NCBI GenBank assembly: GCA_030530315.1
Contig: JAUMVG010000031.1
Span: 1 to 37,380, forward strand
Length of the DNA stretch: 37,380 nucleotides
Direction of reading: 5' to 3'
From: Clostridia bacterium
Lineage (GTDB): Bacteria; Bacillota; Clostridia; Christensenellales; Aristaeellaceae
Part shown: piece after piece, positions 1,747-6,315 of the stretch
Position numbering within the stretch: position 1 is the stretch's first letter
Layout: each line of letters opens with the position of its first letter
Notes under the pieces: model-generated
Told to the model about the DNA's origin: nothing
What the model saw: the letters and a program-made list of their open reading frames with translations, nothing else
The model's database searches: none
Program-made: the position numbers and the translations under genes

Positions 1747-3195
1747 TTGGCATACGGAAATGATTACGACAGCGGCAGCCGCGTCGAGCCCGGCATCAGC
1801 CGCAGGCCCGCTTCTTCCGGGCAGCGCAGCGGCGGCGCGCGCCCCGCGGGATATACCTCCGGATCGCGCCAGCCCCAGCGCGGCACCTCCAGCCAGAGGT
1901 CCGCTTCAGGCCAGCGCGGCTATTCCAGCCGTCCCGCGTCCTCCGGCCAGCGCAGCGCCAGCCGCGGGACCTCCGGCCAGAGGTCCGCTTCAGGCCAGCG
2001 CGGCTATTCCAGCCGGCCCACGTCCGCCCGTCAGGGCTCCGGCGGCAGCCGCCGCAGCTCCGGCGGACGCAAGTCCCCGAACCGCTTCCCGCTGTTCGCG
2101 GTAGCGGCGGTGCTGGTGGTCGTGCTGATCCTGGTGATCGCCAAGCCCTTCGGCCGCCCGGCCCAGGATCCCGTGACAGACGGCCCCGCGGTGCCCGCCT
2201 CCAACGAGGTCCAGACCGCCAGCCCGGCGGCGCAGAGCGTTCCCGAGGACGACGTGCCCCAGTATGACAACCTGGAGGACCAGCTGGCCGACTCGGAGTA
2301 TGACGTGGGCAGCCTGTCCGCCGAGCAGATGGCGACGGTCACCGACCTGCGCATGAACACCAGCCTGCCCGGAGAGTGGATGAACGTGCTGCTGCTGGGC
2401 ACTGACGAGCGCACCCTGAGCGACAGCGCCCGCACCGACGCCATGCTGATCTGCTCCATCAACCGCAGTACCGGCGAGGTGAAGCTGGCGTCCATCATGC
2501 GCGACCTGGCTATCGAGTACACCGACATCGGCCAGTGGAACGGCACCTACCGCATCAACGCCGCCAACTACTTCGGCGGCCCCAACCTGGCCATGCGCAC
2601 CGTGAACGAGAAGTTCAACCTGAACATCCAGTACTACGCGATGGTCAACTTCTTCGGCTTCCAGAAGATCGCCCAGCGCCTCGGCGGCATCGACATCGAT
2701 ATCACCGAGGAGGAGATGAACAAGATCAACATCATGATCGTCCGGCAGGCCAAGGCCGCCGCCGCCGCGGGCATCGACGAGTCTGACCAGGAGAACGTGT
2801 ACCTGGAGACCTACGGCCCCAACACCCACCTGAACGGACGCCAGACCCTGGCCTATGCCCGCATCCGAAAGCTGAGCGGCGGCGACGCCATGCGCACCGA
2901 GCGCCAGCGCAAAGTGCTGCAGAAGCTGCTGGAGAAGATGAAGCAGCTGGACGCGATGCAGCTGGCCGCCCTTGCCACGGACATGTTCGACCAGGTCAAG
3001 ACCAACCTGCCCTTCGACGACATCTTCCAGATCGCCATGCAGGTCAGCACCAACGGCCTGCCCTCCATCAAGTCCATGTACCTGCCCATGTCCGGCACCT
3101 ACAAGGAGGAGACCCGGAACAACCAGTCCATGTTGTACGACTGCGACTTCGCCACCAACGCGCTGCAGCTGTACAACTTCATCTACGAGCAGTAA
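1747..3195 (+). CDS. LytR-CpsA-Psr (LCP) family cell-wall ligase
   Basis: LCP proteins move lipid-linked glycopolymers such as teichoic acid or capsule onto peptidoglycan at the outer membrane face. Residues 1-113 are a basic, Ser/Gly/Gln/Arg-rich cytoplasmic tail. Residues 114-132 are the single membrane anchor, followed by a low-complexity linker. The LCP domain starts near residue 212 with NVLLLGTDER, then RTDAMLI and IMRD, and later YARIRK...RTERQ. These supply the conserved Asp and Arg residues that bind the pyrophosphate lipid and metal. There is no LytR_C domain. The start is TTG with AGGAGG eleven bases upstream. The tail is much longer than usual and contains a DNA duplication (1885-2015). 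The exact polymer substrate cannot be told. Confidence 0.9.
   Translation: MAYGNDYDSGSRVEPGISRRPASSGQRSGGARPAGYTSGSRQPQRGTSSQRSASGQRGYSSRPASSGQRSASRGTSGQRSASGQRGYSSRPTSARQGSGGSRRSSGGRKSPNRFPLFAVAAVLVVVLILVIAKPFGRPAQDPVTDGPAVPASNEVQTASPAAQSVPEDDVPQYDNLEDQLADSEYDVGSLSAEQMATVTDLRMNTSLPGEWMNVLLLGTDERTLSDSARTDAMLICSINRSTGEVKLASIMRDLAIEYTDIGQWNGTYRINAANYFGGPNLAMRTVNEKFNLNIQYYAMVNFFGFQKIAQRLGGIDIDITEEEMNKINIMIVRQAKAAAAAGIDESDQENVYLETYGPNTHLNGRQTLAYARIRKLSGGDAMRTERQRKVLQKLLEKMKQLDAMQLAALATDMFDQVKTNLPFDDIFQIAMQVSTNGLPSIKSMYLPMSGTYKEETRNNQSMLYDCDFATNALQLYNFIYEQ
1885..2015 (+). repeat. Direct repeat inside the LCP cytoplasmic tail
   Basis: A 47-base segment at 1885-1931 recurs at 1969-2015 with one difference I can see. 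The period is 84 bases, which keeps frame and duplicates the peptide RSASGQRGYSSRP. Such a repeat can change copy number by slippage or recombination. Confidence 0.85.
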
Positions 3196-3220
3196 GCCGC
3201 CCTCGACCGCAGGGCAGGTA

Positions 3221-3305
3221 CTTCTTCGCTTCGCTCAGAATGGCGGTGAAGGCGTCGCCGTTCCGGGAGAAGACGTGGCGAAGCGCCGGACTGAGGCCGA
3301 AGGAT
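3221..3305. repeat. Imperfect inverted-repeat element
   Basis: CTTCTTCGCTTCGCTCAG at 3221-3238 is mirrored by CTGAGGCCGAAGGAT at 3291-3305 across about 50 bases. I recall TTCGCTTCGCTCAGAATG-like ends from dispersed intergenic repeats in gut Firmicutes, but that is from memory. With flanks it fills most of the gap between the LCP gene and the terminator at 3377. Confidence 0.4.
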
Positions 3306-3376
3306 CTCCGCAGCATTCATCATTGACAATTGCGCTGAAAAGAGAAGCGGGCCTGACCAAACCCGCGGAGCACGAA

Positions 3377-3424
3377 AAAGGGGACTGCCCGAGTGGCTGA
3401 TTTGCCGCCCGCGCAGTCCCTTTG
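3377..3424 (-). terminator. Bidirectional terminator between convergent genes
   Basis: GGGACTGC at 3381-3388 pairs with GCAGTCCC at 3413-3420 around a 24-base loop. Reading leftwards the stem is followed by CCTTTTTC, a good T tract for the minus-strand anti-sigma gene. Rightwards only TTTG follows, so it is weaker for the LCP gene. Confidence 0.75.
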
Positions 3425-3449
3425 TCGCGCTTATGTCGCCGCCCCTGCC

Positions 3450-4271
3450 TCACCAGCACACCGGGCAGCGCTGCTTGCCGAGCTTTTCACAGTACAGCAC
3501 GGTGTATACGCGCGCGTCCTTCATGGCCATGCACTCCTGCTCCTTGTGGTAATACTGGCCCATGGGCGTGGCCCAGCAGGGCTCAAAGGTGCTCGCGGGG
3601 ACACACACCGGGCAGGGCCCCTTGCCGGTGCCCTCCGCGACGGCGGGGGAGCAGCCCTCGGCGTTCAGCATGCCGGAGCAGTCCCGGACAAGGTGATAAT
3701 ACATTCCCTTCCCGGTGCAGTAGAACCAAAGGCGGGGGACCCGGTCGGCGTCCACACACACCGGACAGGGCAGCTTGCTGCTGATCCAGGCGTAGTCCCA
3801 CGACAGGGGATAGGCGTTGTGCATGCCGCCACAGTGCTCGTCGATGTGAAAGTATTTGCCTCCCTGGGTGGCGTAATAGACCTGATCCGCAGGGTATTCC
3901 TCCTGCCGGGAGCCGCCCGACCGGGTCTCCGAGAGCGCCTCCGCCGTTTCTGCCGGGGCCTCCTCCGGCCAGGGCAGATCCGTCTCTTCCACTGGGTTCT
4001 CCTGCGGGGCGGACGCCTCGCCGATGGCGCCGCCCCGGGGCGCGGTCGCCACGCGGTCCACCCTGGGGGCCAGCATTGTGCCGGCGGCCAGTGCGAGCGC
4101 GGCGAACAGCACGGTCACGGTCGCGGCTACGCACACTGCGGTCATTATCTTGTGTCTCTGTTTCACAGCCATGTCTCCTCTCCTGAAGGCCTGCTCGACG
4201 CGGGCCGTAAGTTCCGGGGGCGCTTCCGTGAACGCGCGGTCAAGGTGCTTCAAAGCGGCGTTGTCCTTCAT
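3450..4271 (-). CDS. Membrane anti-sigma-like protein with three extracytoplasmic His/Cys metal-site repeats
   Basis: Probable regulator of the ECF sigma factor encoded just upstream: its ATG overlaps the sigma stop codon as ATGA, a sign of translational coupling. Residues 1-41 are cytoplasmic and helix-prone. Residues 42-64 are one membrane segment, and 65-130 are an acidic, Pro-rich linker. The outer part holds three copies of a 41-residue module. Each has Tyr/Trp, Gly, Tyr-His and Cys, and ends in CPVC. The ligand pattern H-x4-C-x21-C-x2-C is identical in all three (H142/C147/C169/C172, H193/C198/C220/C223, H242/C247/C269/C272). This resembles Ada-type zinc sites found fused to various proteins. 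No ZAS motif (HxxxCxxC) occurs in the cytoplasmic part, so the sigma-binding mode is inferred from context. A metal, redox or thiol-reactive signal is plausible. Confidence 0.75.
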   Translation of the reverse strand: MKDNAALKHLDRAFTEAPPELTARVEQAFRRGDMAVKQRHKIMTAVCVAATVTVLFAALALAAGTMLAPRVDRVATAPRGGAIGEASAPQENPVEETDLPWPEEAPAETAEALSETRSGGSRQEEYPADQVYYATQGGKYFHIDEHCGGMHNAYPLSWDYAWISSKLPCPVCVDADRVPRLWFYCTGKGMYYHLVRDCSGMLNAEGCSPAVAEGTGKGPCPVCVPASTFEPCWATPMGQYYHKEQECMAMKDARVYTVLYCEKLGKQRCPVCW

Positions 4272-4741
4272 ACTCTGTCACCTCCGTCCAGCAGCTCGCG
4301 CAGGGCGCGCCGGGCCTGGTGCAGCCGGGATGTCACCAGCCCCGGCGGCAGCTTCAGCGTCAGGGCGATCTCCTTGATGGAGTAGCCCTCCAGGTGGTGC
4401 AGCACCAGCGGCAGCCGGTACTTCTCCGGCAGTCGCCGCAGGGCCAGGCGCAGCTGCAGGTCCTCGCAGAGCCGGTCTTCCTGGGCGATTTCGACGTCCA
4501 GGGGCAGCGGCCCGCGCCTTCGCCGGCGGATCGCGCTCCGGCATTCGTTCACCAGTATGCTCATGAGCCACGGCTCGAGCCGGTCCGGGTTGTTGAGCTG
4601 GTCCTTCTTCAGCCAGCCCCTGAACACCGCCTCCTGCACCGCGTCCAGGCTGTCCTCCTGCCGCCAAAGCATGGCTTGGGCCACGCGGTACAGCCGGCCC
4701 TCCAGGGCGCGCACGCGGCGGATGTACTCCTGGTCGTTCAT
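4268..4741 (-). CDS. ECF-family RNA polymerase sigma factor
   Basis: Small group IV sigma factor, 157 residues. Region 2 spans about residues 8-75 with DSLDAVQEAVFRGW and an Arg-rich end (AIRRRRRG). Region 4 spans about 95-150 with LPEKYRLPLVLHHLEGYSI, a helix-turn-helix and SRLHQARRAL. It would direct polymerase to its own regulon when released from the partner encoded immediately downstream. Only a short linker separates the two regions, as in SigW/SigV-like ECF factors. The ATG at 4741 has GGAG nine bases upstream. The target genes cannot be deduced, and no clear second copy of its own upstream region was seen in the window. Confidence 0.93.
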   Translation of the reverse strand: MNDQEYIRRVRALEGRLYRVAQAMLWRQEDSLDAVQEAVFRGWLKKDQLNNPDRLEPWLMSILVNECRSAIRRRRRGPLPLDVEIAQEDRLCEDLQLRLALRRLPEKYRLPLVLHHLEGYSIKEIALTLKLPPGLVTSRLHQARRALRELLDGGDRV

Positions 4742-4809
4742 GGAAACACGCTCCAGTATCGCAAAGTGACGCCACTCCCCGCCGGCTCGCGAGCCGACGG
4801 CGATCGATT

Positions 4810-4815
4810 GTTATA
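4810..4815 (-). promoter_or_regulatory. Possible extended -10 promoter for the sigma operon
   Basis: On the minus strand TGTTATAAC gives an extended -10 (TG-n-TATAAC) about 70 bases before the ECF start. No TTGACA-like -35 lies 17 bases upstream. An ECF-type autoregulatory promoter could also be present but was not recognised. Confidence 0.35.
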
Positions 4816-4893
4816 ACACCTGTAAGACGAACGGGAGAGGGGGAATATTGAAGGGGAATCGAGATTTAACATTGGCGCGGAACGGCCGTACCC

Positions 4894-4928
4894 AAAAAGA
4901 AAAGACCGCCCCGGGATCGGGACGGTCT
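4894..4928 (-). terminator. Intrinsic terminator of the zinc-ribbon gene
   Basis: AGACCG and CGGTCT, extended by four inner pairs, form a stem with a short GATCC loop at 4903-4928. On the minus strand it is followed by TTTTCTTTTT. It lies 20 bases past the stop of the 4948-5145 gene and insulates the sigma operon. Confidence 0.88.
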
Positions 4929-4947
4929 CCCCGCGCGAAGGCCGGCT

Positions 4948-5145
4948 TTACGCCTCCGCGGGTTTGCGGGGCTGGGGCGTCAGCTGCTCCTCGGCCTTGA
5001 ACACGTAGCCGCAGTCGCAGGCGGTGTCCTCGATGATGCGTCCGCGGCGGGTGAACACCTCCACCGTTTCGCCGCAGGCGGGGCAGGTCCGCTCCTCCAG
5101 GATGGGTGTCTTGTGCTTGGCCTCGCAGCCGTCCATGATCGCCAT
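4948..5145 (-). CDS. Small zinc-ribbon protein, function unknown
   Basis: A 65-residue protein with CPAC at residues 21-24 and CDC at 43-45, a spacing that fits one zinc ribbon, plus an extra Cys at position 7. No membrane segment or catalytic motif is seen. The reading frame is open further upstream to 5277, but ATG at 5145 has AAGGAGG eight bases before it and is clearly the start. The gene is monocistronic, divergent from the sugar transporter operon, and followed by a strong terminator. I do not recognise the family. It could be a small regulator or a metal-binding accessory protein. Confidence 0.8.
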   Translation of the reverse strand: MAIMDGCEAKHKTPILEERTCPACGETVEVFTRRGRIIEDTACDCGYVFKAEEQLTPQPRKPAEA

Positions 5146-5270
5146 GCTCACAACCTCCTTTTCATAATAGAGGATTTCAAAGAAATGATAGCATGATTCC
5201 CGGGGAAAGTCAAAGGGGAGGCGGGGAAACGTGCCGCAAGAAATAATAAATTTGTCAAATACTGTGCCTA

Positions 5271-5299
5271 TTGACAAACACGGACAAAAAAACTATAAT
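5271..5299 (+). promoter_or_regulatory. Strong vegetative promoter for the sugar transporter operon
   Basis: TTGACA at 5271-5276 and TATAAT at 5294-5299 match consensus exactly with a 17-base spacer. The predicted start is near 5306. No operator palindrome over the promoter was obvious. Confidence 0.92.
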
Positions 5300-5352
5300 G
5301 TCATTGGCTTATCTGACACATATATTATAAAGGATTGGCTTTGGATTACTGG

Positions 5353-5369
5353 CAGGCGCACCGCGCCTG
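5353..5369 (+). other. 5' UTR hairpin upstream of the binding-protein gene
   Basis: CAGGCGC-ACC-GCGCCTG is a perfect seven-pair stem with a three-base loop, ending about 11 bases before AGGAGG. It may stabilise the mRNA of this abundant protein or tune its translation. Confidence 0.6.
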
Positions 5370-5394
5370 TTGGAAATAAAAGGAGGTTTACCCC

Positions 5395-6315
5395 ATGAAG
5401 AAAGTTCTCGTTCTGGTCCTTGCTCTGGCCATGGTGCTGGGCTGCACCGCGGCGATGGCCGATAAGATCGGCTACACCTGCATGGACGGCACCAACCCCT
5501 TCTTTGTCGCGCTGGAAGGCTCCATCCGTGAGGTCGTTGAGGCCAACGGCGACGAGCTGATCTCCCTGGATCCCCAGAACAGCAATGAAAAGCAGCTGGC
5601 TCTGGTCGAGGACATGATCTCCCAGGGCATCGTGGCCATCTTCGTCAACCCCGTTGACCGCGACGGCATCACCCCCGCTCTGGACGCTCTGGAAGCCGCT
5701 GGCATCCCGATGTTCGGCTTCGACACTGAAGTGACCGACATGGACAAGCTGGTCACCTACGCGGGCTCCGATAACTACAACGCCGGCTATGTCTGCGGCG
5801 TGGACCTGGCTGAGAAGTGCCCCGATGGCGGCCCCATCATCGTTCTGGATTCCCCGACCATGCAGTCCGTCGTGGACCGCACCGACGGCTTCCTGGCCGC
5901 TATCGAAGAGAAGGCTCCCGGCAAGTTCGAGGTTGTCGCGCAGATCGACTGCATGGGCAACCAGGAGCAGGGCAACCTGAACGGCACCGACGCTCTGACC
6001 GCCCATCCCGACGCTGTCGCCATCTTCGGCGGCAACGATCCCACCGCTCTGGGTGCCCAGGCTGCTGCCGAAGCCGCTCAGTCCAGCGCTCTGATCTACG
6101 GCGTTGACGGCTCTCCCGACATCAAGGCTCTGATCGCCGAGGGCAAGGTCACCGGCACCGGCGCTCAGTCCCCCATGACCATCGGCAAGACCATCGCCGA
6201 GCTGTACTATCAGTGGAAGGCTGATCCCGACAGCGTCGAGGATCGCTATCCCATCGAGACCTTCATGATCAACAGCGACAACATCGACGAGTACAACAAC
6301 GGCGGCTGGCAATAA
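5395..6315 (+). CDS. Sugar ABC transporter substrate-binding protein (RbsB-like)
   Basis: Extracellular pentose/hexose-binding protein of the periplasmic-binding fold type I (Peripla_BP_4) that delivers sugar to the ATPase and permease encoded next. Residues 1-22 are a signal peptide. VLGC at 14-17 could be a lipobox, or AMA at 20-22 a signal peptidase I site. The mature start DKIGYTCMDGTNPFF and the segment NPVDRDGITPALDALEAAGIP are typical of the RbsB group. Later GGNDPTALGAQAAAEAA and GVDGSPDIKALIAEG form the second lobe. The length, 306 residues, is normal. The start has AGGAGG eight bases upstream and a consensus promoter. The adjacent lyxose isomerase suggests a pentose ligand. Codons differ slightly from the neighbours (more GCT), as expected for high expression. 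Confidence 0.92.
   Translation: MKKVLVLVLALAMVLGCTAAMADKIGYTCMDGTNPFFVALEGSIREVVEANGDELISLDPQNSNEKQLALVEDMISQGIVAIFVNPVDRDGITPALDALEAAGIPMFGFDTEVTDMDKLVTYAGSDNYNAGYVCGVDLAEKCPDGGPIIVLDSPTMQSVVDRTDGFLAAIEEKAPGKFEVVAQIDCMGNQEQGNLNGTDALTAHPDAVAIFGGNDPTALGAQAAAEAAQSSALIYGVDGSPDIKALIAEGKVTGTGAQSPMTIGKTIAELYYQWKADPDSVEDRYPIETFMINSDNIDEYNNGGWQ

Follow-up and report, generated by a model that had tools for sequence, protein, structure and literature searches.

Several partners of extracytoplasmic function (ECF) sigma factors have been described, and those of the RsiV/DUF4179 type are well known (PMC6066255). RsiV is a DUF4179 protein of the ECF30 group; once it has bound lysozyme, signal peptidase cleaves it immediately outside the membrane, and RasP cuts it next (PMC6066255). 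RsiP, which is without DUF4179, is likewise cut by signal peptidase (PMC8844934). Approximately 44% of class I anti-sigma domains are without a zinc-associated anti-sigma (ZAS) motif, and classes II and III also exist (PMC7406223). CnrY is named a class II anti-sigma factor (PMC7406223) and grips its sigma factor with two helices (PMC4598750). In this work, a gene pair encoding an ECF sigma factor (P0002) and a membrane protein with three outer H-C-C-C modules (P0001) was compared with these systems. The pair lies in a stretch of 37,380 nucleotides (hereafter, the window; assembly GCA_030530315.1, contig JAUMVG010000031.1, positions 1 to 37,380) from a gut bacterium of the family Aristaeellaceae (Clostridia).

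Results

Sigma factor and partner form a conserved unit

Both genes are on the minus strand and overlap by the sequence ATGA at 4268-4271:

4268..4741, minus strand: ECF sigma factor gene, 157 amino acids (P0002); Pfam Sigma70_r2 and Sigma70_r4_2 over the cut-off
3450..4271, minus strand: membrane protein gene, probable anti-sigma factor, 273 amino acids (P0001); orthologues adjoin the sigma gene in 16 of 16 genomes

The preliminary description of this DNA had named the upstream gene as an ECF sigma factor, and this was confirmed: Sigma70_r2 (PF04542, 41.9 bits) and Sigma70_r4_2 (PF08281, 55.8 bits) both exceeded the Pfam cut-off, and P0002 is composed of sigma-70 regions 2 and 4 only, its 157 residues being within the ECF limit of approximately 200. 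The gene overlap and the single membrane segment of the partner, also described there, were found as well. P0001 has one hydrophobic stretch at approximately residues 41-69 (hydropathy, in a frame counted from two residues earlier), and its structure model contains one long helix at residues 19-66.

Conservation of the pair was studied in 28 genomes of the genus. A sigma factor orthologue was found in 16 of them at 214 bits or more, the best full-length paralogue scoring 116 bits, and a search with the partner's conserved N-terminal 81 residues gave matches in the same 16 genomes at E <1e-10. The partner was present in each of the 16 genomes with the sigma orthologue and in none of the 12 without it, and the two genes were adjacent in every case. 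Two more genomes matched the partner N-terminus weakly (E 0.004 and 0.009); the match at 0.004 comes from the N-terminal end of another, DUF4179-like partner, whose gene adjoins a different ECF gene. The pair is a conserved unit in which the partner is tied to one ECF gene. Such co-occurrence and adjacency support the earlier proposal that the downstream protein is an anti-sigma factor. The alternative of an orphan repeat protein unconnected to the sigma factor was rejected on co-occurrence. One genome without an intact pair (G008; L206:4137-4650) has a promoter-like site, the start of the sigma gene and then a partner-like end (by eye) beside uvrA; this locus is a relic from which the middle of the operon was deleted, both partners having been lost together.

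Three homologous modules outside the membrane

The ectodomain of P0001 carries the following modules:

3753..3881, minus strand: module 1 (H142, C147, C169, C172); pattern and profile
3600..3728, minus strand: module 2 (H193, C198, C220, C223); pattern and profile, superposed on Ada residues 27-73
3453..3578, minus strand: module 3 (H242, C247, C269, C272); pattern and profile

Each of the twelve His and Cys ligands previously assigned to the modules was found in its place, and H-x4-C-x21-C-x2-C occurs exactly three times in P0001. When the ectodomain was shuffled 20,000 times with its composition preserved, one pattern appeared in 22 shuffles and two appeared in none. When the genome was searched with a profile of 30 modules, which was built with these three included, modules 1, 2 and 3 scored E 3e-20, 2e-17 and 3e-18, respectively. 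The modules had been called identical; this is correct for the ligand spacing but not for the sequences, since modules 2 and 3 are 44% and 33% identical to module 1. They are homologous repeats that share ligand spacing, not sequence. In the orthologues, all four ligands were retained in 42 of 42 recognised modules, and 35 of these 42 had the exact x4-x21-x2 spacing. P0001 has 13 Cys residues outside the membrane, four of which (C185, C207, C232 and C261) are not ligands.

The module is probably a divergent metal domain of the Ada type. In the comparison of the predicted module structure with the PDB, the matches listed were all to E. coli Ada, with weak scores; profile intermediates exist in the form of related single modules in other genomes, some of which exceeded the PF02805 (Ada_Zn_binding) cut-off. 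PF02805 gave no match for P0001 at E up to 5 and none in its genome. Among PDB sequences, the module profile found only two weak matches, to the ribosomal protein eL43 (E 0.02, in the CPxC half) and to an antibody chain (E 0.55), and these were set aside as chance or common zinc-ribbon features.

The Ada domain has four cysteine ligands, the first of which is the methyl acceptor. In 42 of 42 recognised modules, the place of this cysteine is occupied by His, as deduced from the superposition and from alignment with an Ada profile made from two of the five strong Ada matches. Because of this His, Ada-type alkyl transfer by the modules appears unlikely, and Ada-type DNA repair or alkylation sensing was rejected.

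A constant N-terminal part and a variable ectodomain

Orthologue alignments demonstrated that the cytoplasmic segment and the membrane helix form the constant region of the protein. The parts preceding the modules are as follows:

4146..4271, minus strand: conserved cytoplasmic segment, residues 1-42, with predicted helices at 4-15 and from 19 onward; proposed sigma-binding part (orthologue alignments, model and weak DUF4179-type profile match)
4074..4145, minus strand: membrane segment, residues 43-66 (hydropathy and model)
4086..4094, minus strand: Ala60-Leu-Ala62, where the membrane segment ends on its outer side; candidate signal-peptidase site (A-x-A, by eye)
3882..4055, minus strand: linker, residues 73-130, acidic and proline-rich, mostly disordered in the model (predicted local distance difference test score below 50 at residues 73-123)

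The cytoplasmic segment has the consensus L-x-RAFTEAPxEL-x3-VE-x-AF-x2-GE-x-AMK-x-RHK. In P0001, it contains no Cys and only two His residues (H9 and H40), and it was modelled as two helices, the second of which is continuous with the membrane helix. The A-x-A motif was seen by eye at this position in 15 of 16 orthologues, with G-x-A in the remaining one (L026). Searches of P0001 against Pfam, NCBIfam and PDB sequences gave nothing over any cut-off; below it, Pfam matches to DUF3040 (E 0.0027, residues 3-63, corresponding to the N-terminus and membrane helix) and DUF677 (E 0.37) were found. PF13786 (DUF4179) had no match in P0001 at E up to 5, the HMMER filters dropping most matches above 0.1. 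When the cytoplasmic segment was compared with DUF4179-type partners using hhalign, the score was 21.5 (probability 57%) over a short alignment, and the maximum of 200 column shuffles was 16.0.

The number of recognised modules was zero in L025, one in L021, two in eight genomes, three in the window and in L012, four in three genomes and seven in L032 (the same gene as L013); the profile used for recognition has invariant ligands, so decayed copies would escape detection. L025 retains the cytoplasmic segment and the membrane helix, and a possible module remnant was seen in it by eye. Several orthologue ectodomains carry an extra unrelated stretch. Variable module content combined with a constant N-terminal part suggests that the modules are an exchangeable receptor and that the link to the sigma factor lies in the constant part. 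In the tree of sigma factors, module-bearing and module-free partners are intermixed, and well-supported branches force at least three gains or losses of modules; long branches leave the details of this tree unsure. At two loci (L024:1-585 and L038:4210-5064), a third frame located 3' of the membrane protein also has one module. A sister ECF pair in the same genome (L114:246-1463, contig C9) has a partner with a similar N-terminal layout, in which a weak SH3-like match takes the place of modules.

Promoter-like site and leader

Upstream of the sigma gene, one further element was recognised:

4825..4850, minus strand: promoter-like CAAT-N17-CGTCT, possibly autoregulatory

The usual ECF promoter has CGTC in its -10 element, and the resemblance of the site to it suggests autoregulation of the pair by its sigma factor. 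CAAY-N17-CGTC(T/C) was found upstream of 14 of 16 orthologous operons, compared with a mean of 0.07 and a maximum of 2 of 16 in 300 shuffled sets, the pattern being defined on these same upstream sequences. The strict pattern with GTG occurs at two sites in the genome, one of which is the pair's own. A search of the 28 genomes for CAATAT-N15-CGTCT found 47 sites, distributed over 22 genomes, compared with 10 for the backward control; nine of the 47 are the pair's own promoters, and one belongs to the G008 relic. No regulon was derived from the other sites, which were judged by eye: several repeated ones resemble conserved coding sequence, and the C13 and C64 sites of the same genome were left out.

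Two recurring palindromes were seen by eye in the leader between the promoter and the start codon (window 4809-4818 and 4766-4775, minus strand). The first is TGTTATAACA or TGTAATTACA, and the second, which is imperfect in the window, is of the type TGACGTCA or TGACGGCCGTCA; at the place of the first, GTACCGGTAC or GAAATCGCGATTTC was seen by eye in other ECF operons across the family. These palindromes may be operators or leader structures. A dispersed element resembling CTGAGCG(A/G)AGCGAAGGATCT was noticed by eye upstream of sigma genes in L012, L019, L020, L025 and L082, and parts of it seem to be present at window 3220-3310 too.

Modules in other contexts

In the genome containing the window, 27 profile matches were obtained. 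One protein (L009, G000:C10:54100-55700) is a 513-residue membrane protein with five recognised modules and no ECF gene within 2.8 kb upstream; another (L010, G000:C79:48100-51111) is a 968-residue membrane protein with 11-12 recognised modules, whose upstream side is at a contig edge. Long module proteins of approximately 1100 and 520 amino acids, similar to L010 and L009, were listed for many genomes of the genus. On contig C64 of the same genome, there are two further ECF operons whose partners have weak DUF4179 matches and end in one module.

Across the family, module matches were found in 99 of 150 genomes. Outside the genus, 31 of 35 module-bearing places among the matches listed were examined (G076:C29, G145:C182, G162:C84 and G144:C121 were left out). 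At five of the 31 loci (L054, L057, L062, L064 and L066), a membrane partner comes directly after an ECF gene; the frame of this partner is split in L054. At another (L047:152-1351), a secreted four-module protein, possibly a separate receptor, precedes an ECF gene whose product clusters with the window sigma factor in the tree. The other 25 loci had no ECF gene directly upstream; several of them have at least 2 kb of upstream sequence and some have little. In a phylum sample of 398 genomes, at least 16 matched, the genome of the window included. Beyond this genome, the phylum matches were weak (E 5e-7 to 1e-3) and fell in nuclease, TadE-type, ChW-repeat and small secreted or membrane proteins; at the 16 phylum loci examined, no ECF gene was found. 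Pfam and NCBIfam searches of the tested proteins left the module arrays without a match over the cut-off.

The repeat-profile search foreseen in the preliminary description thus showed that module-bearing membrane proteins beside ECF genes recur in other genera of the family. Homologues without a sigma gene nearby, which had been expected to speak against the proposal, do exist for the module (the 513-residue protein and the family loci with at least 2 kb upstream) but not for the N-terminal segment.

Surroundings of the pair

The pair is followed by a probable terminator:

3365..3425, no strand assigned: inverted repeat with flanking A/T runs 3' of the pair, likely a bidirectional terminator (read from the sequence)

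An Rfam search of 3100-5400 gave no match at E up to 1. Upstream of the pair (window 4948-5148, minus strand), a small CxxC-rich, zinc-ribbon-like protein was noticed by eye. Comparison of neighbourhoods at 18 loci revealed a convergent gene, uvrA by eye, in nine, another small gene in seven, a third in six, and others in at most four; none of these recurring neighbour clusters is found close to the pair in the window. Named relatives were obtained for the window protein at 12 loci of uncultured Clostridia/Clostridiales metagenome-assembled genomes, the labels of some giving sheep duodenum or roe deer rumen.

Discussion

In our estimate, the chances are slightly better than even that the pair is a self-regulating ECF sigma factor with a membrane anti-sigma factor, whose ectodomain is built of exchangeable structural-zinc modules and which releases the sigma factor by proteolysis. 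Residues 1-42, predicted to form two helices, would sequester the sigma factor on the cytoplasmic side, as short segments without ZAS do in proteins of the RsiV/DUF4179 type, or perhaps as in class II (CnrY-like) domains, whose two helices embrace the sigma factor in its closed form. Signal peptidase could cut at the Ala-x-Ala that ends the membrane helix, and site-2 proteolysis could follow, as published for RsiV. Such sequestration and proteolytic release are proposed because of the described cleavage of RsiV and RsiP, the conserved A-x-A and the weak DUF4179-type similarity of the N-terminus. Outside the cell, a flexible linker would bear the array of Ada-type His-Cys3 zinc modules, and the bound partner or the mechanical state of the modules would control cutting of the membrane-near site. 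Ectodomain content (zero to seven modules, sometimes another domain) would be exchanged with the sigma-holding part remaining fixed. The zinc is most likely structural, making the modules compact, easily duplicated recognition domains; this view is preferred because unrelated outer proteins also use the module and one orthologue has it only in decayed form, if at all.

If, instead, the modules sensed metal directly, loading of the H-C-C-C sites with zinc (or copper or cobalt) would switch proteolysis, and the sigma factor would answer metal shortage or excess. We consider this unlikely, although the ligands are complete in all 42 recognised modules, module copy number varies as that of a dose-tuning device might, and CnrX/CnrY/CnrH exemplifies ECF systems that sense metal outside the cell (PMC4598750). 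Structural zinc fits better with the same modules in large membrane proteins with no ECF gene found upstream and in nuclease, TadE-type and ChW-repeat proteins, and with the orthologue that has no recognised module; moreover, no metal transporter gene was recognised by eye beside the pair in the window.

A thiol sensor, whose modules would free the sigma factor on modification by electrophiles, alkylating agents or disulfide stress, is decidedly improbable. Ada senses alkylation by means of this fold, and the non-ligand cysteines among the 13 outside the membrane could be taken in its favour; however, His stands at the acceptor position in all recognised modules, and the spacing and conservation of the ligands resemble a metal site.

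The least probable alternative, that P0001 is a surface protein co-transcribed with the sigma factor or a target of it and not an anti-sigma factor, would agree with the many module proteins that have no ECF gene alongside and with the secreted protein preceding the ECF gene in L047, but it is the cytoplasmic segment and the membrane helix that stay constant, accompany the sigma factor through the genus and are kept even in L025, where no module is recognised.

If the pair is a sigma factor held by a membrane anti-sigma factor with an exchangeable receptor, then sister species keep one sigma-holding part and vary only the receptor (0, 1, 2, 3, 4 or 7 modules, sometimes another domain). In this natural series only the receptor changes, so its contribution is directly testable. 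Sigma signalling is now connected with a small module of metal type, which Pfam and NCBIfam overlook in the window protein.

Comparison with described systems

The Ada N-terminal domain (PF02805) resembles the module in ligand order and approximate ligand spacing and, with weak scores, in predicted fold. The module differs from it in having His as the first ligand and x4-x21-x2 spacing, and in being tandem, extracytoplasmic and without an attached repair enzyme. Single YH-C-CxxC modules of secreted and membrane proteins of Bacillota are of the same type, some being over the PF02805 cut-off; they differ in occurring in one or two copies, with no ECF gene in the 16 short-flanked loci examined. 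A literature search that combined anti-sigma factors with Ada-like or metal-binding domains found no title or abstract describing this combination among the papers searched, and the three papers naming Ada_Zn_binding concern other matters, judging by their entries.

CnrY/CnrX/CnrH also combines an ECF sigma factor with a two-helix anti-sigma segment and with sensing outside the cell (PMC4598750), but its sensor is a separate protein, CnrX; the likeness to the window pair is one of layout. RsiV and the other DUF4179 partners (ECF30) are closer to the window protein: the partner gene follows the ECF gene, a short N-terminal cytoplasmic segment is without ZAS, and one membrane helix ends in a possible signal-peptidase site and is followed by an outer receptor domain. 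The missing ZAS motif, which had been thought unusual, is therefore not so, given such partners (PMC6066255) and the share of class I domains without it (PMC7406223). The window protein differs from RsiV in having no DUF4179 match, an ectodomain of Ada-type modules and no known link to lysozyme. It is most likely that the pair is an ECF/anti-sigma system that shares the RsiV layout, lacks DUF4179 and bears Ada-type modules in an array: a new combination of a known kind.
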